Virus record (IMG/VR): IMGVR_UViG_3300035698_016128
Coordinates: 60,120-124,119 of that record
Reading direction: 5' to 3' (one strand)
DNA from: a virus
Length of the DNA: 64,000 nt
This document shows positions 6,992 through 60,261 of the stretch, one piece after another. Made by a program: the position numbers and the translations under genes. The notes beneath the pieces were generated by a model. That model was not told where the DNA came from and did not search any database. It saw nothing but the letters and a program-made list of their open reading frames with translations. Every line of letters begins with the position of its first letter. Position 1 is the stretch's first letter.

Positions 6992-7196
6992 GTTACGTTT
7001 TTGTAACATATGCGTATATATTTGTAACAAGTTTTCGGCAGTATTCGCACGCGGTTTTCGCATGCAAGAATTGCAATACGAAATATGTACCCACGTGCGA
7101 AAAACGTAATACGAAACCGTACCAGTACGAAAACGTAACAACATGACAGAAACGTAATCACATTACGAAAGCGTAACAACGTGACGAAAACGTAAC
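6992..7196. promoter_or_regulatory. GTTAC-N6-GTAAC site array
   Basis: A perfect site GTTACGTTTTTGTAAC lies at 6992-7007. Four imperfect sites follow at 7124, 7143, 7162 and 7181, exactly 19 bases apart (for example ATTACGAAAGCGTAAC and GTGACGAAAACGTAAC). The same 16-bp palindrome recurs as an array at 10658-10781. Regular spacing close to two helical turns suggests cooperative binding by a regulator or initiator. Confidence 0.7.
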
Positions 7197-7198
7197 AA

Positions 7199-7282
7199 GG
7201 CAGGCAGGGTGACAGCAGGCAGGCAGGGTGACAGCAGGCAGGCAGGGTGACAGCAGGCAGGCAGGGTGACAGCAGGCAGGCA
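7199..7282. repeat. 19-bp tandem repeat
   Basis: AGGGTGACAGCAGGCAGGC is repeated about 4.4 times with no mismatch. The period equals the 19-base spacing of the adjacent GTTAC array, and each unit keeps a GTGAC half-site. Confidence 0.92.
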
Positions 7283-7393
7283 AAAAAACCCAAGTGACGA
7301 AAAACGGCGTTTCGGTGACGTATTACGTCACTTTCTTGCCTATTTTCAGGGTGCCATATTGACAGAAAAAAAGCTTGAAAAAAAACTTTCGCC

Positions 7394-7599: not shown

Positions 7600-7624
7600 A
7601 CTTAAAATGCGTTTCCAAAAAATT

Positions 7625-7659
7625 CTAGTTTTTGGCTTTGCAAGCCGTTTCCGTTTTCC
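7625..7659. repeat. 35-bp inverted repeat, left arm
   Basis: This arm is the reverse complement of 8152-8186 at about 32 of 35 positions (shared core CGGAAACGGCTTGCAAA). The two arms enclose exactly one gene with its ribosome site. They could be transposon-like ends, recombination sites of an invertible segment, or the stem of a very large RNA hairpin. No transposase or recombinase is adjacent. Confidence 0.85.
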
Positions 7660-7679: not shown

Positions 7680-8135
7680 ATGGCGAAAGCCAAAAAGCGC
7701 TTCCTGTCAATGAAGGAAATGATGTATTTTCATTTCCTTGCTATTGCAACGGCAGGGGAAAGCACCCTGAAAGCTGGGGCGCTTCTGAAGGCCTATCACG
7801 GGGGGAAAGAAACTTCCCGTGAGGTTGGCAATGTGACCGGCGAATTGTTCGCACCTGCTATCATGCTTCGGCACCTTGAAAGCTTCGGCACAGTTTCAAG
7901 CGCAGAAGCGAATGACGGCACAATCATTCGCCTGTTTGACGGCTTCGGCAAAGAAAGCTTCCGGGTTTTCTTTTCCAAGCGGGGAAAATGGGCGGGCCGC
8001 TATGGTGTTTCTGGCGCAGTGAAAAGCGCTATGGAAAACGCCCTGCCTGATTGTTCCTTTGACTGGGAACAGCAGGGCACAAAAAATTACTTCTTCTCAG
8101 GGAACAATGAAGCGCTTCTGCGCTTCGCACCCTGA
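7680..8135 (+). CDS. Orphan protein, paralogue of the 9934-10440 product
   Basis: A 151-residue protein; MAKAKKRFLSMKEMM is chosen as the start after AGAAAGGTAGGTG. Residues about 40-150 align with the C-terminal part of the minus-strand protein at 9934: AYHGGK(E/D)T, NDGT(I/V)(I/V)R(L/V)FD, FFSKRGKW / FFLSKRGKW, (Y/F)GVSG and KNY(F/Y)FSGN are shared. No known domain is recognised. Alone among cassette genes it lies between 35-bp inverted repeats. Its coding sequence at 7797-7821 contains a near-copy of the hairpin that punctuates the rest of the cassette. Confidence 0.85.
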   Translation: MAKAKKRFLSMKEMMYFHFLAIATAGESTLKAGALLKAYHGGKETSREVGNVTGELFAPAIMLRHLESFGTVSSAEANDGTIIRLFDGFGKESFRVFFSKRGKWAGRYGVSGAVKSAMENALPDCSFDWEQQGTKNYFFSGNNEALLRFAP

Positions 8136-8151
8136 CAGGCAGTAATCAACC

Positions 8152-8186
8152 GGGAAACGGAAACGGCTTGCAAAACCCAAAACTAG
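8152..8186. repeat. 35-bp inverted repeat, right arm
   Basis: Partner of the arm at 7625-7659. It begins 17 bases after the stop codon of the enclosed gene and ends 18 bases before the next ATG. Confidence 0.85.
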
Positions 8187-8204
8187 AACAAGAAAGGGGA
8201 AACC

Positions 8205-8291
8205 ATGGAAATTTTTCTTTTTGGCTGTTTTTGGTTTAGCCTGTTTTGCAGTTTCGTCATTCTTTGCATCATGCTCAGCAACAAGTGGTAG
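8205..8291 (+). CDS. 28-residue single-span membrane peptide
   Basis: A short gene encoding MEIFLFGCFWFSLFCSFVIL..., ending MLSNKW. It is one continuous hydrophobic helix with three Cys. AGAAAGGGGAAACC precedes the ATG, the same ribosome-site block used by the other cassette genes. It may be a membrane-acting micropeptide. Confidence 0.7.
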   Translation: MEIFLFGCFWFSLFCSFVILCIMLSNKW

Positions 8292-8303: not shown

Positions 8304-8426
8304 ATGTTAGAAAGCTTGCACCTTCAGTTTTTCACATTGTTCGTTGATGCTGAAGCGCTTCTGTTTTGGAAAAGGGCGTTTCAGGCTTCGGAAAGCATAA
8401 CCGGGGAAAACTGGTTTGTTTTCTGA
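8304..8426 (+). CDS. 40-residue small protein
   Basis: Encodes MLESLHLQFFTLFVDAEALL... after GTAGGGGGAAACC. Amphipathic and rich in Phe. It lies twelve bases after the previous stop codon, in series with the other cassette genes. Not recognised. Confidence 0.65.
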   Translation: MLESLHLQFFTLFVDAEALLFWKRAFQASESITGENWFVF

Positions 8427-8433
8427 GAAAACC

Positions 8434-8455
8434 GGGGGGAAGGAAACTTCCCCCC
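8434..8455 (+). repeat. GAAA-loop hairpin, copy 1
   Basis: Perfect 9-bp arms GGGGGGAAG and CTTCCCCCC enclose a GAAA tetraloop (GNRA class). It follows a stop codon and precedes the next ribosome site. Identical copies are at 8604, 8859 and 9169. No T-run follows, so it is not a classical terminator. Confidence 0.95.
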
Positions 8456-8456
8456 C

Positions 8457-8470
8457 TACAATTTCTTGTA
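8457..8470. promoter_or_regulatory. TACAA/TTGTA palindrome inside the cassette
   Basis: TACAATTTCTTGTA is identical to the operator at 7432. It lies between the hairpin and the AAGGGGAAACC ribosome site of the next gene, so it could act on DNA or as a small RNA hairpin. Confidence 0.55.
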
Positions 8471-8481
8471 AAGGGGAAACC

Positions 8482-8592
8482 ATGATTTTAGGCTTCTACT
8501 TGATTGCCAACAGGCCGGTTTTCTTGATGCTCACAAACGTGGGGGAAGTTGATCAACTGTTCCAGAAAACAATATGGCTTCAGTTTGTTTGA
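8482..8592 (+). CDS. 36-residue small protein
   Basis: Encodes MILGFYLIANRPVFLMLTNV... and ends KTIWLQFV. Hydrophobic N-terminus. Ribosome site AAAGGGGAAACC. Not recognised. Confidence 0.6.
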   Translation: MILGFYLIANRPVFLMLTNVGEVDQLFQKTIWLQFV

Positions 8593-8603
8593 AGCCGTCA
8601 ACC

Positions 8604-8625
8604 GGGGGGAAGGAAACTTCCCCCC
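8604..8625 (+). repeat. GAAA-loop hairpin, copy 2
   Basis: Identical in arms and loop to the copy at 8434. It begins 12 bases after a stop codon and is followed by CAGAAAGGGG, the next ribosome site. Confidence 0.95.
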
Positions 8626-8641
8626 CCAGAAAGGGGAAAAA

Positions 8642-8851
8642 ATGGAATACGAACACCCAAAAATGAGGAACAAGTTTTTTAAGTTTCTTGGTGACAGCGT
8701 GCTTGAACCACTTTTCTACAAGCTTGGCTTGTGGTACGGCTGTGATGACTGTGATGACTGCGTGAACCACTGGGTTTACAAGGTTTCCGGTTGCAAGGTG
8801 TGCACGCAAAGGAAGTGTGGCAAAATTCTTGACGCAGTGATTTGGAAGTAG
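8642..8851 (+). CDS. Cysteine-rich small protein
   Basis: A 69-residue protein, MEYEHPKMRNKFFKFLGDSV..., with CDDCDDC near the middle and CKVCTQRKC near the end. These suggest one or two metal sites, but the spacing does not match a named zinc finger. The start follows AGAAAGGGG; an upstream ATG would read through the hairpin and is rejected. Confidence 0.75.
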   Translation: MEYEHPKMRNKFFKFLGDSVLEPLFYKLGLWYGCDDCDDCVNHWVYKVSGCKVCTQRKCGKILDAVIWK

Positions 8852-8858
8852 GTCAACC

Positions 8859-8880
8859 GGGGGGAAGGAAACTTCCCCCC
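8859..8880 (+). repeat. GAAA-loop hairpin, copy 3
   Basis: Identical to the other copies. It starts eight bases after the stop codon, preceded by the shared flank GTCAACC. Confidence 0.95.
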
Positions 8881-8887
8881 AAGCTTT

Positions 8888-8901
8888 TACAACTTCTTGC
8901 A
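8888..8901. promoter_or_regulatory. TACAA/TTGTA-like palindrome inside the cassette
   Basis: TACAACTTCTTGCA matches the operator consensus except one base in the right arm. As at 8457, it lies between hairpin and ribosome site. Confidence 0.45.
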
Positions 8902-8915
8902 GAAAGGAAACTGAT

Positions 8916-9155
8916 ATGACACTTGGCAAGGCAAAAAAGCCGAACGGGAAAATGTGTGCAAGGGTAGTTTCGAACGGCTTGGGTGTTGAAATAGAAGTTG
9001 GCTTGCAGAAGGCAGAAAGTGACACACTCATGGCAGTTGGCACCATTCGCCCCAAGTACAAGAATGAAGAAGCGGGCGCGTTTTTCATGACCATGCTGAA
9101 AGAATACGCTGAGGCGCACGGCATTGAATTTGATGTACAGCAATGGGAAGAATAG
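8916..9155 (+). CDS. Unknown 79-residue protein
   Basis: Encodes MTLGKAKKPNGKMCARVVSN.... Beta-rich start, then a helix MTMLKEYAEAHGIEFD. AGAAAGGAAACTGAT precedes the ATG. Not recognised. Confidence 0.8.
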   Translation: MTLGKAKKPNGKMCARVVSNGLGVEIEVGLQKAESDTLMAVGTIRPKYKNEEAGAFFMTMLKEYAEAHGIEFDVQQWEE

Positions 9156-9168
9156 TCAACCGTCAACC

Positions 9169-9190
9169 GGGGGGAAGGAAACTTCCCCCC
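9169..9190 (+). repeat. GAAA-loop hairpin, copy 4
   Basis: Identical to the other three copies. It lies between the stop codon of the previous gene and the AGAAAGGGGAAAGT ribosome site of the last cassette gene. Confidence 0.95.
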
Positions 9191-9204
9191 AGAAAGGGGA
9201 AAGT

Positions 9205-9342
9205 ATGAGAAAGCCTTTCAGCGCAGTACACATTTGTAACAGGTGCAAGCGCAAAGTAGTAATCATCAAACGGCACAAAGCGCTTCCGCTTCCTTACTGC
9301 TACATGTGTGGCAAGTGTTTCAAGAAGGAATACGGCACGTGA
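9205..9342 (+). CDS. 45-residue zinc-ribbon protein
   Basis: Encodes MRKPFSAVHICNRCKRKVVI... with CNRC and, after about 18 residues, CYMCGKC: a compact two-knuckle zinc ribbon. Last gene of the cassette, directly followed by terminators. A nucleic-acid or protein contact role is likely; the target is unknown. Confidence 0.78.
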   Translation: MRKPFSAVHICNRCKRKVVIIKRHKALPLPYCYMCGKCFKKEYGT

Positions 9343-9432: not shown

Positions 9433-9475
9433 GGGGAAGGGGAAGCCAAGCGCTTTCCTTTCCCCCCTTTTTTTT
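9433..9475 (+). terminator. Intrinsic terminator 2 of the cassette
   Basis: A 14-bp stem (9433-9446 with 9452-9465, two G-T pairs) with a short loop is followed by CC and eight T. A very strong rho-independent terminator. With the previous one it forms a double stop facing the convergent minus-strand unit. Confidence 0.9.
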
Positions 9476-9933: not shown

Positions 9934-10440
9934 CTACGCGCCTAAGTAGCGCATGAGAGCTGCGGTATTCCCGGAGAAGTAGTAGTTCTTACTTTCGGAC
10001 TGACGTACCCAACCGAACTCATCGTTGGTATTGACCGCTTCAATCTGCGTGCGTGCCTTACCCGACACACCGAACTGCCCCGACCATTTGCCCCTTTTCG
10101 ACAGGAAGAACCGGAATGCTTCGGACCCGCAGTTATCAAAGACGCGAACCACCGTACCATCGTTGCATTCCGCTTCCGTGAACCTGAGATCAGCAGCGCT
10201 CATGACCGACGCCACAATGGCGCTTCCGAGGAGTTTGCCAGTAGGACCGTCAACTGCCCTTTCGGTATCCTTCCCACCGTGGTACGCGGAGTTGAACATT
10301 CTGGCGGTCACATCCTCCGGGGTCATTTCCGGGATGACCGGCGCTTCGGGTTCAACGATGGGTTCCACCGGGGCGATGATGACTTCTTCCGCCTTCGGGG
10401 ATACTGCCTTCTTCCGCCTGATCGTTTTCTTGGTTCCCAT
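9934..10440 (-). CDS. Orphan protein, paralogue of the 7680-8135 product
   Basis: A 168-residue protein. It starts MGTKKTIRRKK after GAAAGGAGATTCAAA. Residues about 20-45 are a Pro/Glu/Val linker (APVEPIVEPEAPVIPE). Residues about 53-168 align with the cassette gene product at 7680, sharing AYHGGK, NDGT, FFLSKRGKW, FGVSG and KNYYFSGN. It sits alone between its own sigma-54-type promoter and terminator, beneath the same kind of GTTAC operator array that precedes its paralogue. The conserved block could be a DNA-binding or protein-binding domain; function unknown. Confidence 0.85.
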   Translation of the reverse strand: MGTKKTIRRKKAVSPKAEEVIIAPVEPIVEPEAPVIPEMTPEDVTARMFNSAYHGGKDTERAVDGPTGKLLGSAIVASVMSAADLRFTEAECNDGTVVRVFDNCGSEAFRFFLSKRGKWSGQFGVSGKARTQIEAVNTNDEFGWVRQSESKNYYFSGNTAALMRYLGA

Positions 10441-10503
10441 TTTGAATCTCCTTTCAGAAGGGTTTTGAGTCCCACCACACCACGTGGTGGTACCCGTATA
10501 TAC

Positions 10504-19458: not shown

Positions 19459-19659
19459 ATGTTTTGGGTTAATTTTTACGACTGGTTCCTTATCTCATTC
19501 GGCACAGAAGTTTACGGTGTCGGTAATGACACCACTCTTTACTTCCTTGACAGCATCGATGAAGAATGTCTCGGTGAATTTGCCGACCTGTATATGACAT
19601 ACACCGGATATAGCGCTGAAGAATGTGTAGACGAATTCATTGGAGTGCAAAATGGCTAA
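19459..19659 (+). CDS. Small acidic MFW-type protein
   Basis: A 66-residue protein, MFWVNFYDWFLISFGTEVYG..., acidic and aromatic. The first 14 residues resemble the minus-strand gene product at 15072. CAGGGGGAAACGAT precedes the ATG. First gene after P9; it carries the ribosome site of the polymerase X-like gene. Confidence 0.78.
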   Translation: MFWVNFYDWFLISFGTEVYGVGNDTTLYFLDSIDEECLGEFADLYMTYTGYSAEECVDEFIGVQNG

Positions 19660-20380
19660 GGGAAGCGACAGGGTATTTCTTCGTGCCGAAGCACTTGATA
19701 TCTTCGATGAAGTGCATGGCGCATTAACCGCAGACGGCATGGTCGTTAAGGCTACGGCTTGTGGTTCGATCAGGCGTGGCAAGATGATGGTCAACGACCT
19801 TGATGTGGTTGTGGTATCGTGCTATGATAATGCCACACCCATCTGGGAGACGATAGCCACAAACCTGTGGGAACCTACCGAACGGCTTACCTGTGGCCCA
19901 GTCGAATTCAAGTTCAAATACAAGGGACTTCAAATTGATCTGAGAAATTTCCTTCCCGAACAAGAAGGAGCCGGACTACTGTTCAGTACAGGCAATGCCA
20001 TGTTCAACATCTCAATGCGCAGTAGGGCTAAGGTGGTCGGCGACAAGAGGGGCGAAACCTTCAAGCTTAACAGGTACGGCGTCCAATTAATCAAAGGTGG
20101 CATTGACGAGAACGTCACCTTTGGCTTCAGCGAGTCAGGTATATTCGGCTTCCTCGGTATGCCATTCGTTGAACCTGCCGACAGAAGCTTGGCTGAATAC
20201 GAAATGCACAGAGCCGACTCACACTCCATACCAATTGAAAACAGCAAAGGAACTGGAGTCTACAATGTGGTGCTGTCTGGGGGCAAGCTCTCCTGTCCGT
20301 GTAAAGGCTTCACATTCCGAGGTAAGTGCCGTCATGTAACCGAGGCACGTGCAATGGTCGATAACATACCCGAAGGGTGA
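19652..20380 (+). CDS. DNA polymerase X-like nucleotidyltransferase with C-terminal SWIM zinc motif
   Basis: A 242-residue protein. Residues 38-55 (GSIRRGK, then NDLDVVVV) are the pol beta-type nucleotidyltransferase signature, with D49 and D51 as metal ligands and D96 (LQIDLR) a likely third. STGN...ISMRSRA (112-126) matches the nucleotide-binding TGS segment of PolX, and FGFLGMPFVEPADR (165-178) the end of the thumb. The 8-kDa lyase/HhH domain is absent. Residues about 204-232 form a SWIM motif, C215-x-C217-x8-C226-x-H228. Expected activity is short-gap DNA synthesis or terminal transfer, with the zinc motif guiding DNA or protein contact. Start MAKGSDR follows GGAGTGCAAA. Confidence 0.82.
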   Translation: MAKGSDRVFLRAEALDIFDEVHGALTADGMVVKATACGSIRRGKMMVNDLDVVVVSCYDNATPIWETIATNLWEPTERLTCGPVEFKFKYKGLQIDLRNFLPEQEGAGLLFSTGNAMFNISMRSRAKVVGDKRGETFKLNRYGVQLIKGGIDENVTFGFSESGIFGFLGMPFVEPADRSLAEYEMHRADSHSIPIENSKGTGVYNVVLSGGKLSCPCKGFTFRGKCRHVTEARAMVDNIPEG

Positions 20381-22961: not shown

Positions 22962-22985
22962 GTGGGTATTCTCACGAATACCCAC
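22962..22985 (+). terminator. Hairpin after the 22530 gene
   Basis: GTGGGTATT-CTCACG-AATACCCAC, a perfect 9-bp stem seven bases after the stop codon. No T-run follows, so it may protect the mRNA end or attenuate rather than terminate. Confidence 0.55.
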
Positions 22986-31447: not shown

Positions 31448-32527
31448 ATGACAGAGAAGAAACACAAAAAGAAGAAGAAGGCTCCTGAAGAAGGGGAAGA
31501 GTATTTCTTCGGTAATGCGCGTCTGGTAAAGCGTGACCGGAAGAATTACGGCTCGTGTGCCTGGAAGGGTGCCTGCAAGGTTGATCCGAAGTGTGACGGC
31601 AAAGATGAGGAATGCGAAGACTTCGAAAGCATTCAGCCGTTCATTCCCCCGATCGATGAACACTATAACCTTAACCTTGAGATCGGCGAAACCATTGCCT
31701 TTGCTCTTGCTGACGAAAACAGGCACAACATCCTGCTGGTTGGCCCTCCTGGGTGCGGTAAGTCTTCGCTGGTCATGATGATCGGGGCAATCACTGATTG
31801 GGAAGTCATGCGCTTCTCTTGCTCTGAGGAAACACGGCAGTCACAGGTTATCGGCCAATGGATTGTGGTGGGTGACAAGATGCGGTGGGTTGACGGCTAC
31901 GTCACCGATGCGCTTCGGCAGGGCAAAATCCTTCTTGAGGATGAAGCTGACTTCATGCGTCCTGAACTGCGTGGCGCTCTCCACCCACTGCTTGAGAAGG
32001 ATGGTACCATCACCCTTCAGGGGTACCATCCGAAAACAGGGGAACCTTTCCTCGAAGTGGTTGACCGTCATCCGAATTTCCGGTGGGTCTCCACAGCCAA
32101 CACCACAGGGCTTGGCGATGATTCCTTCATGTATCACGGGACTCAGTTCATGAATGCCGCCGCTCGCGACCGTTATGCGGTGATCATCCCCATGAATTAC
32201 CTGAGCGTCGAGGAAGAAACTGAGATTCTGGTCAACAAGACCAAAACGGAAACTTCAATAGCTGAGTCGATGAGCAAAACGGCACACGCAATCCGCGAAG
32301 TGTTCGAACAGCAGAAGGTCCAGTACCAGTTCAGTATGCGCCGTCTGCTTGCGTGGGCTGACTACCACAACTTCTACAAAGACCGCAAGCCCTCGGAGGC
32401 CGTGAGGCTTGCCATTCTGTCGTTCGCCCGGGATGATGACATTCAGCAACTCGTTGATCTGATTCGGCTCAACATGGGCGCTGACTTCATCGAAGGTATC
32501 AACCGGTCGGCCAAGGGGGTGAGATAA
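31448..32527 (+). CDS. MoxR-type AAA+ ATPase (CobS-like)
   Basis: A 359-residue protein. After a Lys-rich head and a Cys cluster (C37, C43, C49, C56) comes the AAA+ core: Walker A GPPGCGKSS (99-107), Walker B ILLEDEADF (161-169), sensor region STANTTG. MoxR/CobS ATPases remodel proteins or insert metals together with a VWA partner. Here the partner follows at once, with the stop and start overlapping (GAGATAATGG). CobS/CobT-like pairs are known in other large phages; their target is not settled. GAAGGAGACAGTAAG precedes the ATG. Confidence 0.9.
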   Translation: MTEKKHKKKKKAPEEGEEYFFGNARLVKRDRKNYGSCAWKGACKVDPKCDGKDEECEDFESIQPFIPPIDEHYNLNLEIGETIAFALADENRHNILLVGPPGCGKSSLVMMIGAITDWEVMRFSCSEETRQSQVIGQWIVVGDKMRWVDGYVTDALRQGKILLEDEADFMRPELRGALHPLLEKDGTITLQGYHPKTGEPFLEVVDRHPNFRWVSTANTTGLGDDSFMYHGTQFMNAAARDRYAVIIPMNYLSVEEETEILVNKTKTETSIAESMSKTAHAIREVFEQQKVQYQFSMRRLLAWADYHNFYKDRKPSEAVRLAILSFARDDDIQQLVDLIRLNMGADFIEGINRSAKGVR

Positions 32528-34953
32528 TGGCAGGTAAACGTAGTCCTCTAACAGCAAGGAAGGTCGACGCACTGACCACCCTTGTCCAGTTTCAAACTGG
32601 TCACTATGGCGATGTGCGAATTATCCACAGCGCAGAAGCACACCTGAAAACCGATGGCAAGAATGTCTTCGTGCCGTGGATACCTGATGATGTGTTTGAT
32701 GAATACTCCGACCTGATGTTCAGCGGGGTGGTCCACGAGGGTGCGCACATCAAGCGTTCCTCCTTCACTGCACTCAGGCTCTTCAGGGGGCAACGCCTTG
32801 CGCAGATGTTTGGCAATGCCATTGAAGACTCACGCATTGAACACTTCGAACAGATTGAATACCGGTCGCTTGAAAGGGAATTCAGGGCATTCTCTGATTA
32901 TTTCCAAAGAGACTACCTGAAGGAAAAGAAGGAAAACGAAGATAAGGCAATCAAAGACCCCGGCTACATGCTGTTCCTTGTGGGATGTGTCATGAACCTG
33001 TATCTGAGTGGGTATGAGTACGATTACTTTCCTTACCATGTAATCGAACTCGCCATGTCATGCAAGGATATTCTTGATGATTTTAAAGAGAATTGGCCCA
33101 GTGATAAGACTGGCTCAAGTAAGGCTCTTGAGGCCGGGGCCAAGATTGTTGAGCGTTTCGAAAAGCTCTTCAAGACAATGCCGAAGATCAAACCCCCCAA
33201 AGGTGCCGGTGCATGGGGCGATGATGGTGATGATGAAGGAGAGGGCGAAGAAAAGGAGAGCGACAGCAAAAAAGGCAAACCAAAACCGGGTTCATCGGAA
33301 GAAGGTGATGAAGATGAAGACGACGATGGAAGAAGAGATGAGGATGATGAGGGAAGCGGTGAAGGAGATGGGATGGGCGGCGGCGGAGATGAGGAGGATG
33401 AAGAGGACGGGGAAAGTGGAAGCGGAGACAGTGACAGTGAAGAGGACGATGACGGCAGTGACGAAGGAGACAGTGAAGGTAGTTCCGCTGGCGGGGAAGC
33501 AGGGGACGGTGACGATGAGGAACGTGATGACGAGGAAGATGACAACCCCCTGGACAGTGGCATTGGAACGAACGAAGACGGCCCTGACGCTGATAAGAAG
33601 AAGAATAGCAAAAACGATGGCGATGACGGTGGCGAAAGCGCTGAAGGACTTGGTGACGAAAGTGACGCGGACGGCGGTGAAGAAGAAGGCGAGGCAGAAG
33701 GCGAAAGAGACACAATCACCGACGAAGAATACGGAAAAAAGAAAGACGGCTCAGAAGTAGAAGTAGAATCGGAATTTGAAGGCATGATTCATGAAGATGA
33801 TATGCCAAAGGAAGACCCTGCAATGAAAAGGGCAGGTAAGAAAATCGCCAATGCCTTGGAGAACGCCATGGCGGAGGCCGCTGATGCCGATGGCAACCTT
33901 GACATTACAAAGATTGATGATCACATTGACAGTGGTGGTCCTGGTGGTATTCCTGCATGGAAGATGCTTGAAAAGGCAAAGGACGCCGGAGTTAAAACCA
34001 TCAGGGAACATATCTATGATAAGGCACGTGGCGAGATCATTGCCAAGTCTTCCACAGGTAAGCAACACATGGCACATCCTGATGCGATGAAGCATGACAA
34101 GGAAGTCACCCCCAGTCTCGATGCAACGCCTATGGAGAAAGCACATTACACCAACATAGTCAATGCTCTCGGGCCTGAAATAGGCCGACTTTCAACTCAA
34201 ATGCTCAGCCTCATTATGTCTCAGAAGCGAGTGCACTTCGCACCTGACTCTGAGGAAGGCGAAATTGACACCGCCGCTCTTTGGTCCTTGAAGCACGGCA
34301 ACAAGCGCATCTTTAACCGACATACTTGGGGGCGTAAGCTGAACACAGCAATTGAGATTCTTGTTGATTGCTCAGGCTCCATGGGTAGCAGTGGAAAGGT
34401 CGAAGGGGCGATGAAAGCAGCAATCGCCTTCGGGGAAGTGTTGACAAGAATCGGCGGTGTGCCTTTCGAGGTTACCGGCTTCACCACACACGGATATGGT
34501 GCCCTTTACGGTAAGGAATCGGCAATGTACAACCGCTTTGAATCTTTACTGCACTATGTCTACAAAACGTTTGAAGAGAACTACCACACAGTGAAGTATC
34601 GGCTTCTTGCGATTAAGGCCGGTGGCAATAACTGTGACGGTGAGTCTGTCATGTGGGCAGGGAAACGTCTCATGGCAAGGCCCGAAAAGAGAAAAATGAT
34701 GTTCGTTTTCTCTGACGGTATGCCAGCATGTTACGATGGCGGTCACCCCGGACTGCTTGACCAAGATCTTAAAGAAACAGTCATAAGGCTTGAGAAGCTT
34801 AAGGTCGAAGTCTATGGCATAGGCATTTACACAGATGCCCCTGCTGAATTTTACAAGGACCATGCAATCATCAACCGCAGAGAAGATGATATTGCCCGAG
34901 CACTGTTTGGGTGCCTCAAGAAGAGATTCATGGGTGGTATGAACGGAATGTGA
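32527..34953 (+). CDS. Large VWA-domain protein (CobT-like) with long acidic linker
   Basis: An 808-residue protein. An N-terminal helical domain includes SGVVHEGAHIK (a CobT/zincin-like feature) and a basic, aromatic region. Residues about 230-425 are a low-complexity Asp/Glu/Ser/Gly linker. The C-terminal VWA domain starts near 605 with the MIDAS motif DCSGSMGSS (D614), followed by a conserved Thr in TGFTTHG and a Asp in FSDGMPA. It acts as the substrate or partner arm of the upstream MoxR ATPase, by analogy with CobT/CobS. Substrate unknown; no cobalamin genes are present, although the class II ribonucleotide reductase at 52772 needs B12. Confidence 0.9.
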   Translation: MAGKRSPLTARKVDALTTLVQFQTGHYGDVRIIHSAEAHLKTDGKNVFVPWIPDDVFDEYSDLMFSGVVHEGAHIKRSSFTALRLFRGQRLAQMFGNAIEDSRIEHFEQIEYRSLEREFRAFSDYFQRDYLKEKKENEDKAIKDPGYMLFLVGCVMNLYLSGYEYDYFPYHVIELAMSCKDILDDFKENWPSDKTGSSKALEAGAKIVERFEKLFKTMPKIKPPKGAGAWGDDGDDEGEGEEKESDSKKGKPKPGSSEEGDEDEDDDGRRDEDDEGSGEGDGMGGGGDEEDEEDGESGSGDSDSEEDDDGSDEGDSEGSSAGGEAGDGDDEERDDEEDDNPLDSGIGTNEDGPDADKKKNSKNDGDDGGESAEGLGDESDADGGEEEGEAEGERDTITDEEYGKKKDGSEVEVESEFEGMIHEDDMPKEDPAMKRAGKKIANALENAMAEAADADGNLDITKIDDHIDSGGPGGIPAWKMLEKAKDAGVKTIREHIYDKARGEIIAKSSTGKQHMAHPDAMKHDKEVTPSLDATPMEKAHYTNIVNALGPEIGRLSTQMLSLIMSQKRVHFAPDSEEGEIDTAALWSLKHGNKRIFNRHTWGRKLNTAIEILVDCSGSMGSSGKVEGAMKAAIAFGEVLTRIGGVPFEVTGFTTHGYGALYGKESAMYNRFESLLHYVYKTFEENYHTVKYRLLAIKAGGNNCDGESVMWAGKRLMARPEKRKMMFVFSDGMPACYDGGHPGLLDQDLKETVIRLEKLKVEVYGIGIYTDAPAEFYKDHAIINRREDDIARALFGCLKKRFMGGMNGM

Positions 34954-39934: not shown

Positions 39935-41263
39935 ATGAGTAGTGCGAACGTTGAGCGAGACGTATTAGCTACACTCCTAGTTGATCAATCAATCTTGACC
40001 AAAATGGGAACAAAGCTAAAAACAGAACATCTCACAGTTCCATATTTGAGATGGATATACAAGAAGCTTTCACGCTTTGAAGCGAAGTACGGTGACTTGC
40101 CCAAGGTTTCATATTTTGTAAGAGAAATTGCAAAGGATAAGAGACTATCTAGGGAAGAGAAGGAACGATACGAAAGACTTGTGCGCCGGTTGTACAGAAG
40201 AAAGATCTCAAAGGGTTCAAAGTTATATGCCCTCGAAGAAGTTGAGAGGTTTGCCGCCAAGCAACAGGTCATGCTAAGTATAGAAAAAAGTCTTGATAGG
40301 CTTGAGCGTGACGAGTTGGAAGAGGCAGTTGGAGAACTCACATCAACCGCAAGGATACGTTCATCAGAACGAGACTTTGAAATATCAAATTGGGGTACCG
40401 GCTGGAAGGAACGCCAGCAGTTCAGAAAACTTTGGAAGAAAGATCCCGCCGCAGTAGGTATCATTCCCTTTCCATGGGACGGTCTCAACAAAATCATTCA
40501 CGGGATTCAGCGCAAAGAAGTATGCACCATAGCCGCTACCACGAACGTCGGCAAATCAATTGCAATCATGCTGTGCGGTAGGTATGCATTCACTGATGGA
40601 AAGAAAGTTCTACATATAGAAATTGAGGACAGCAAGGAATTGATTGAGCGCAGGTATGATTCTTCAATACTTGGGGTATCCTCTGAAGCATTGAAGACCT
40701 TTTCGTTAAGCAAGGGCCAGAGAAGAAAGATTAATGAGAAGGTAAAGTTTATCCGTAGCGCACTTGGTGATAATCTTATAGTTGCCAAATGCTACCCCCG
40801 TAAATCAAGTATCATAACGATAGATAGAATCCTTTGGGAACTTGAACAGCAGGGTTGGAAGCCTGACTTCGTAGTCATCGATCACGCTGACGTTATGGCC
40901 CCATCAGAAAAACAAGATCAATACCGTCTTGATCAGGGCGTTGTATATTGGGATTTAAATACATTAGCTGACATGCGCAAGCTTCCCATACTCACAGCCA
41001 CACAGGTGAAGGTTGGGTTCAAGGGGAAACGTGCAACAGCGGAGGCACTATCAGAAGCGTATGACAAGGCACGGATTTTGAATATGATTCTCACCCTGAA
41101 TCAACCTGACGAATCATCCCCCGAAATGGCCCTGTTTGTTGCCAAGAATCGTGATGGTCCAAAGGGTGCAGTCATACCACTCATTGCAAGATTTAATATG
41201 ATGAGACTATATGAGGCTAGGTTCATTAAAGGCGCAGTAACAGAGGAGGATGAAGATGAGTAA
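39935..41263 (+). CDS. DnaB-like replicative helicase
   Basis: A 442-residue RecA-fold helicase. Helical N-terminal domain (1-145), then Walker A TTNVGKS (about 202-208), Walker B FVVIDHADV (about 307-315), and an ATQVK sensor-like motif. Unwinds the fork and recruits the DnaG-like primase at 43432. GAAAGGTAACCA precedes the ATG. Confidence 0.88.
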   Translation: MSSANVERDVLATLLVDQSILTKMGTKLKTEHLTVPYLRWIYKKLSRFEAKYGDLPKVSYFVREIAKDKRLSREEKERYERLVRRLYRRKISKGSKLYALEEVERFAAKQQVMLSIEKSLDRLERDELEEAVGELTSTARIRSSERDFEISNWGTGWKERQQFRKLWKKDPAAVGIIPFPWDGLNKIIHGIQRKEVCTIAATTNVGKSIAIMLCGRYAFTDGKKVLHIEIEDSKELIERRYDSSILGVSSEALKTFSLSKGQRRKINEKVKFIRSALGDNLIVAKCYPRKSSIITIDRILWELEQQGWKPDFVVIDHADVMAPSEKQDQYRLDQGVVYWDLNTLADMRKLPILTATQVKVGFKGKRATAEALSEAYDKARILNMILTLNQPDESSPEMALFVAKNRDGPKGAVIPLIARFNMMRLYEARFIKGAVTEEDEDE

Positions 41264-59478: not shown

Positions 59479-60261
59479 ATGGCTAAGCTTGTAAGGAAGA
59501 ATGGCGATATAAAGATAAAAGAAATAGATGGCGTGATTGGCTTGAAGATGCCGCGCTCAGCGCTCAAACATTCAGATAAACTTGAAAAATATGACATCAA
59601 CAAAGCGCTTGCTATTCGCAAGAGTGTAGCATCTGAAGTAATGCCAGATGGCACCAACAAAATATGGCTTGGTGAAGATGATGACTTTGTGGCCTTCATG
59701 GAGAGCGGTAAGGTCTTGTTTACAAGAGACAACTTAGGTATATTTCAAATTGCTTCGGGATTAAGATTTGAAACAACAGGGCATAGAAAAGAGTACCCAA
59801 TAATAAAGACAGGTGTTGCCGGGGTGTCCTTTAAGGATGGTAACATCAGCAGACAGGTAACTATCCAGCAACTTGGCTCATACAACAAGATTGAAGGGTC
59901 CTCATTCTCAGCAGCACTCAAGAGAGAGCATGACGATTTTGCCAGAAGCGTACTGATTTCAGTGCATACCAGAAACGGCACCCCAATGATTGATAAAAAA
60001 GTTGGCTTTCTTCCCCGCCAGCTATCAAGAATATTGACAATACTAAGTGAATGGTATAGTATTGAATACACTGCCGAAGTGCACAAAATCAAATCAAATC
60101 TGACGAAGGGAAGCAAGCCATTGCGCTTTCCGTGTAGTGTCTCTCTTATTCTACGCCCGAACGTATTTTTGACAAAGGCTCCAATGATCAGGAATATAAA
60201 TGTGTCCGGAATGTCTGTCTCTGAAATACGAAACAAGCTAAAGAAAAAGAGGGAAATGTAA
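59479..60261 (+). CDS. Unknown 260-residue protein
   Basis: Starts MAKLVRKNGDIKIKEIDGVI after AAAGGTGGCATGAT. Mostly beta-strands, ending SVSEIRNKLKKKREM. The basic end resembles that of the 60776 protein (DNIRKRLRRK). Not recognised; the location suggests a replication accessory role. Confidence 0.78.
   Translation: MAKLVRKNGDIKIKEIDGVIGLKMPRSALKHSDKLEKYDINKALAIRKSVASEVMPDGTNKIWLGEDDDFVAFMESGKVLFTRDNLGIFQIASGLRFETTGHRKEYPIIKTGVAGVSFKDGNISRQVTIQQLGSYNKIEGSSFSAALKREHDDFARSVLISVHTRNGTPMIDKKVGFLPRQLSRILTILSEWYSIEYTAEVHKIKSNLTKGSKPLRFPCSVSLILRPNVFLTKAPMIRNINVSGMSVSEIRNKLKKKREM

Follow-up and report, generated by a model that had tools for sequence, protein, structure and literature searches.

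Four identical hairpins between the small genes of a phage cassette are most likely intercistronic RNA elements, and neither DNA sites nor intrinsic terminators. They lie in a DNA stretch of 64,000 nt (positions 60,120 to 124,119 of IMG/VR virus record IMGVR_UViG_3300035698_016128), which we call the window in what follows. It is probable, in our judgement, that they are post-stop protective hairpins that bound the cistron segments of one mRNA. The virus record is phage-like, encoding a head maturation protease, a major head protein, a DnaE-type polymerase, a helicase and a ribonucleotide reductase; no close named relative was found, the polymerase being less than 60% identical to that of every phage record matched.

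The element, GGGGGGAAG-GAAA-CTTCCCCCC, occurs four times in the window by exact match, on the plus strand only. The full 22-mer (GGGGGGAAGGAAACTTCCCCCC) has no mismatch in any copy, and the four copies, which span 757 nt, start where an initial annotation of the sequence had placed them (8434, 8604, 8859 and 9169). No further match with up to three mismatches was found in the window, none of 100 dinucleotide shuffles of the window gave one, and the chance expectation for four exact copies is zero. Outside the cassette, the full 124,119-nt virus record contains no copy. Stop codons precede copies 1-4 by 7, 11, 7 and 13 nt and the next ATG follows after 26, 16, 35 and 14 nt, with the GAAA loop on the coding strand in all four. 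The flank TCAACC stands before copies 2, 3 and 4, and AAAACC before copy 1; the initial annotation was thus correct on the stop codons and on the three flanks. Coordinates of the cassette features are collected in Table 1.

Table 1. Features of the small-gene cassette, in window coordinates
Feature	Position	Strand	Basis
Gene 1, 151 aa; near-copy of hairpin at 7797-7821; paralogue at 9934-10446 (-)	7680..8135	+	no family hit
Ribosome site AGAAAGGGGAAA of gene 2, no hairpin ahead	8191..8202	+	exact motif
Gene 2, 28 aa, hydrophobic	8205..8291	+	
Gene 3, 40 aa; stop 7 nt before copy 1	8304..8426	+	
Hairpin copy 1, GGGGGGAAG-GAAA-CTTCCCCCC	8434..8455	+	exact match; pair probabilities 0.61-1.00, inner seven at least 0.91
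Palindrome TACAATTTCTTGTA, between copy 1 and gene 4 ribosome site	8457..8470	+	
Gene 4, 36 aa; start 26 nt after copy 1	8482..8592	+	
TCAACC flank of copy 2	8598..8603	+	read from sequence
Hairpin copy 2	8604..8625	+	exact match; forms in 1800-nt fold
Ribosome site AGAAAGGGGAAA of gene 5	8628..8639	+	exact motif
Gene 5, 69 aa, Cys-rich; start 16 nt after copy 2	8642..8851	+	
TCAACC flank of copy 3	8853..8858	+	read from sequence
Hairpin copy 3	8859..8880	+	exact match; nine pairs all 1.00 in fold
Palindrome TACAACTTCTTGCA, between copy 3 and gene 6 ribosome site	8888..8901	+	
Gene 6, 79 aa; start 35 nt after copy 3	8916..9155	+	
TCAACC flank of copy 4; TCAACCG doubled there	9163..9168	+	read from sequence
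Hairpin copy 4	9169..9190	+	exact match; nine pairs all 1.00 in fold
Ribosome site AGAAAGGGGAAA of gene 7	9191..9202	+	exact motif
Gene 7, 45 aa, Cys-rich; start 14 nt after copy 4	9205..9342	+	
True T-tailed terminator (T8) at cassette end, in contrast to the four hairpins	9433..9473	+	

The cassette consists of seven small plus-strand genes (151, 28, 40, 36, 69, 79 and 45 aa) flanked by minus-strand gene groups, and the hairpins occupy its last four gaps (3-4, 4-5, 5-6 and 6-7). Codon statistics favour the named frame in five of the seven genes; the 28-aa and 45-aa genes score slightly higher in another frame. Family searches assigned none of the seven products to a family, the zinc-ribbon-like hits of gene 7 all being sub-threshold. 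A DNA search in phages found no relatives of the cassette. Protein relatives of gene 1 (ORF1) were absent from phages and viral contigs, those of gene 6 from phages and those of the gene 1 paralogue from plasmids, and an alignment of ORF1 with this paralogue found no relatives in viral and genome collections. Records that share the phage's exonuclease gene contain neither a copy of the element nor ORF1; they were rejected as useful relatives since the fetched stretches have almost no other gene in common with this phage.

The ribosome sites, which the initial annotation called nearly constant, fairly deserve that description: AGAAAGGGGAAA is exact at three genes, and genes 4 and 6 are preceded by TAAAGGGGA and AGAAAGGAAAC, respectively. 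Within the window, exact AGAAAGGGGAAA is confined to the cassette; the larger genes of the record mostly use AGGAG. Gaps 4-5 and 6-7 are homologous over ~45 nt (GTCAACC, hairpin, AGAAAGGGGAAA) while the genes that they join have no evident likeness, so that at least these two linkers are copies. The earlier suggestion that the hairpins mark past insertion of gene units is borne out as far as copied linkers are concerned.

A scan of the record for perfect hairpins between stop and start returned three T-less hairpins of other sequence, at 22962 (window) and at 40690 and 27674 (record coordinates), along with two that are clearly T-tailed. The major head protein gene is followed, 23 nt on, by the hairpin at 40690; the one at 22962-22985 (GTGGGTATTC-TCAC-GAATACCCAC) lies 6 nt from a stop and 26 nt from a start. 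The same layout occurs elsewhere in the genome with other sequences, so exact identity belongs to the cassette in particular, and copying is the best reading of it; judged from these sequence comparisons, the identity of the four hairpins probably has this source. That the copies are nonetheless a repeat without function, which slippage or recombination spread recently, we regard as extremely improbable. Exact identity and the doubled TCAACCG at copy 4 would suit such spread, but all copies share one orientation and sit between stop and start, and the same arrangement is under compensatory selection in unrelated phages (below).

Folded alone, the element reaches -18.8 kcal/mol with nine pairs and a G(GAAA)C tetraloop. 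All four stems form in the fold of an 1800-nt transcript, with the inner seven pairs at 0.91 or more. If pairing of the 5′ arm is forbidden, the ribosome-site G's of genes 4, 5 and 7 drop to 0.00-0.02 unpaired. This raises a translation switch, quite an unlikely one, in which the 3′ arm (CTTCCCC) pairs with GGGGAA of the next ribosome site and covering of the 5′ arm shuts the next gene. The GGGG-containing site is special to the cassette, other genes having AGGAG, which speaks for such a switch. However, the hairpin is favoured over the pairing of 3′ arm and ribosome site by ~14 kcal/mol in the fold, a terminating ribosome would cover little of the 5′ arm at this distance from the stop, gene 6 lacks GGGG and changes little, and no ligand or antisense partner was identified.

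Of the properties of a rho-independent terminator, the GC-rich stable hairpin is present and the T-run directly 3′ of the stem is absent. The best 8-nt stretches 3′ of copies 1-4 hold 4, 0, 4 and 0 T, and copies 2 and 4 are followed by CCAGAAAGGGG and AGAAAGGGG, with zero T.

Hairpins of the same kind are found in other phages. IMG/VR contains one further exact copy of the 22-mer (stretch L001), in an unrelated phage, just after a stop and followed by TATTTTTTT; the same stem can therefore serve a terminator. An 18-nt core is present in 87 IMG/VR stretches. The loop and strand counts that follow refer to the matches listed and to genes from a simple ORF caller, and are samples, not censuses. 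With the stem fixed and the loop left free, at least 31 of 61 distinct loops among the matches listed are GNRA (GAAA 16, GCAA 10), against 6% expected from equal base use. On the mirrored stem UUCG is preferred (13 of 63 distinct loops among the matches listed). Stable RNA tetraloops are GNRA or UUCG according to the closing pair, and GNRA on the stem with UUCG on its mirror image is what selection on the RNA form would produce. Among the matches listed, 32 of 47 distinct sites lie within 40 nt after a same-strand stop when the strand reading GNRA is taken, versus 4 of 47 on the complementary strand; the figures for a start within the next 60 nt are 33 of 47 versus 8 of 47. Most of the listed post-stop GNRA sites are 5-17 nt from the stop.

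T-runs (at least five T in 8 nt) accompany 20 of the 43 intergenic GNRA sites listed, and 16 of the 26 listed sites with both a stop and a start have none. Weak or partial terminators, intrinsic or factor-assisted, that lower expression stepwise along the cassette are an unlikely explanation of the four copies. They are suggested by these T-runs elsewhere, by the TATTTTTTT tail of the sole other exact 22-mer and by the scattered T (4 of 8) at copies 1 and 3. Against them stand the T-free 3′ sides of copies 2 and 4, a coding gene within 35 nt after each hairpin, and the proper T8 terminator at the cassette end, which indicates that the phage has T-tailed terminators where a stop is wanted. The earlier opinion that termination is unlikely is thus upheld by the lack of T-runs in the window; about half of the listed distinct GNRA sites elsewhere likewise have none.

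The genes upstream of GNRA hairpins in other phages include gp23, capsid protein E, gp32 and Hsp20, and hairpins directly 3′ of gp32 genes are among them. The initial annotation asked whether the element always sits between small genes; it does not, since in other phages its place is behind large genes in abundant use, such as those for the major capsid protein, gp32 and Hsp20. In the hsp20-clpS gap of uncultivated phages (stretches L339-L418, ~25-60 nt before position 801), a hairpin is kept by 47 of the 48 distinct sequences; 34 have a GAAA or GCAA loop, and a T-run is usually lacking. In 35 aligned stems compensatory changes occur at six of the seven pairs; covariation is 0.312 versus 0.169 in shuffled alignments, and both-side-change cells number 21 versus 4.3 in shuffles, a result somewhat favoured by construction, as the aligned hairpins were picked for pairing. 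TCAACC also precedes the GNRA hairpin in three hsp20-clpS gaps of other phages, too few to interpret. Rfam searches at the gathering score matched no family, either in the window or in 14 loci that bear such hairpins. In one further phage (IMGVR_UViG_3300035512_000378; stretches L242 and L337) a CTTCCCCTTCAGGGGAAG-type hairpin joined to a second GC-rich palindrome is repeated, with five copies in 14 kb. Strand, loop preference, folding and hsp20-clpS covariation together support a GNRA-capped mRNA element at cistron boundaries.

The same data bear on a double-stranded DNA element, either a phage-protein binding site or a recombination junction for small-gene exchange, which we consider very unlikely. 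Four identical copies and the copied linkers 4-5 and 6-7, which join unrelated genes, are in its favour, as is the description of PeSL elements of T4-type phages as gene-shuffling mediators in work cited in PMC4503421. Yet GAAA is on the coding strand in all four window copies, and the strand and GNRA/UUCG loop preferences across phages are properties of RNA, unlike those of a symmetric DNA site; on this ground a DNA or recombination site is rejected as the primary function. Gene shuffling is compatible with a protective hairpin as a by-product.

Three other candidates were rejected. The four hairpin-bearing gaps (8426-9205) are all 1 mod 3 (55, 49, 64 and 49), which puts the next gene in the same relative frame each time. 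No slippery motif is shared before the stops, and programmed +1 frameshifting or bypass was dismissed, the frames being a coincidence with a chance of ~1 in 27; no gene 60-type take-off and landing pairs were seen by eye in the four gaps. An RNase III site needs a duplex of about 20 pairs, and a stem of only nine is too short. A phage RNA-polymerase promoter before the hairpin was discarded because the conserved upstream sequence, TCAACC, is too short.

The initial annotation saw in the near-copy inside gene 1 a hint of the element's origin. Positions 7800-7818 match the first 19 nt of the element with one mismatch (expected 0.01 per window), a similarity beyond chance. When folded, the near-copy has a 7-nt loop in place of the GAAA tetraloop and reaches -12.5 kcal/mol, compared with -18.8 for the element. 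It encodes GGKETS within a motif, YHGGK-E/D-T, that gene 1 shares with its paralogue, whose codons there differ, so the coding motif is older than the resemblance to the hairpin. On these sequences, the hairpin could have been copied from gene 1 or the resemblance could have arisen by convergence, and both fit; the similarity stands, and the hint is in this way half supported.

Several features around the cassette were recorded in passing. The two paralogues (7680-8135, plus; 9934-10446, minus) are 46% identical and share the motifs AYHGGK(E/D)T and FSKRGKW-GVSG. Gene 1 is enclosed by a 37-nt inverted repeat (92%; 7623-7659 and 8152-8188) that in the transcript fold forms a stem of ~-54 kcal/mol with pair probabilities near 1; from this model it could be a processing stem or the trace of an inversion or insertion. 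The palindrome TACAAN4TTGTA, with up to one mismatch, occurs 12 times in the window versus 1.8 expected (including 6899, 6928, 7394, 7432, 8457, 8888, 17880, 17900 and 17937), mostly in non-coding leaders of gene groups, while two copies separate a cassette hairpin from the next ribosome site; it is possibly an operator or promoter element. In the long non-coding region ahead of the cassette, 7123-7292 consists of tandem repeats with a 19-nt period (ACGTAAC-type, then AGGCAGGCAGGGTGACAGC) and resembles an origin or regulatory array. Farther away, two neighbouring plus-strand genes (31448-34953) have PHROG hits that are porphyrin-biosynthesis/AAA-ATPase-like and cobaltochelatase CobT-like, and the gene at 19640-20380 has hits to the thumb and palm domains of DNA polymerase beta (PolX-type).

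Several known systems resemble the cassette. REP/REPIN elements are likewise extragenic palindromes and can block 3′ exonucleases. They are dispersed genome-wide, whereas the hairpins have four copies in one cassette and none elsewhere in the record. PMC8948821 describes CUUCGG hairpins as intergenic in many phages (citing Tuerk et al. 1988) and a 5′ CUUCGG hairpin as stabilising the T4 gene 32 mRNA. Like these T4 C(UUCG)G hairpins, which lie mainly between genes and ahead of some of them, the cassette elements carry a very stable tetraloop in intergenic position on the coding strand; they differ in that GAAA closed by G-C replaces UUCG closed by C-G, in the purine 5′ arm and in the presence of four identical copies within 757 nt. 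In E. coli, T-less hairpins form the 3′ boundary of stabilised operon segments (PMC5927463). These malE-type protective hairpins share with ours stability, the lack of a uridine tract and location at a cistron boundary, although in E. coli many are located within the coding sequence of the downstream gene and differ in sequence, whereas the cassette copies are identical and strictly between stop and start.

The PeSL elements of T4-type phages (Arbiol 2010 and Comeau 2014, as cited in PMC4503421) likewise consist of short stem-loops, repeated in a variable region where they separate small genes, with possible module shuffling. Compared with them, the cassette has no consistent early promoter and no terminator tail, and an adjoining palindrome in two of four copies; no promoter-like sites were listed on the plus strand of the four gaps, where TCAACC is the only conserved flank. 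SAS/ESAS of cluster K mycobacteriophages (PMC3203893) are repeats that contain inverted repeats and stand ahead of the starts of some non-structural genes. The SAS repeat, of GGGATAGGAGCCC type, measures 13 bp and resembles a ribosome site, and ESAS has 17-bp arms without kept RNA pairing (PMC3203893); the cassette has AGAAAGGGGAAA as ribosome site and perfectly paired arms. The cassette hairpin is best explained as the GNRA version of known phage intercistronic tetraloop hairpins, and its unusual feature is the presence of four identical repeats in a cassette of orphan micro-genes.

In the protective reading, each hairpin in the common mRNA of genes 3-7 would form its nine-pair stem and G(GAAA)C tetraloop just after the stop, at a distance (7-13 nt) where a terminating ribosome should hardly contact it, and would form a barrier on the cistron's 3′ side. 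After an endonuclease cut or incomplete downstream transcription, 3′-to-5′ exonucleases would be halted at the hairpin, each short ORF would retain a defined, protected end, and the next ribosome site would stay free. We infer this exonuclease barrier and the protein ratios that would result from it. The linker module (TCAACC and hairpin, plus AGAAAGGGGAAA in two gaps) would have spread by copying within the cassette. The post-stop position, the lack of T-runs, RNA-level selection in other phages and the abundant expression of upstream genes there fit a protective boundary. The exact identity of the four copies, which exceeds what structure alone requires, counts against it, as do, on sequence grounds, the T-runs at about half of the listed GNRA sites elsewhere. 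As a whole, the interpretation offered in the initial annotation is supported in part.

More broadly, and tentatively, the order stop, GNRA hairpin, ribosome site, start may be a general phage cistron joint, the GNRA twin of the UUCG hairpins. Here it may have become a copyable module that adds unrelated micro-genes to one mRNA, with protected ends and with ribosome sites that the 3′ arm can mask.

Many phage micro-genes are packed into single transcripts, which raises the question of how each is dosed. Should transcript ends be set by the hairpins, the cassette would offer four natural steps in which one element stays constant, well suited to measuring the effect of an intercistronic hairpin on decay and translation. 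Uncultivated phages commonly carry GNRA or UUCG hairpins, often T-less, just behind the stop codons of capsid, gp32 and Hsp20 genes, and a hairpin that follows a stop without a T-run should not automatically be called a terminator in annotation.
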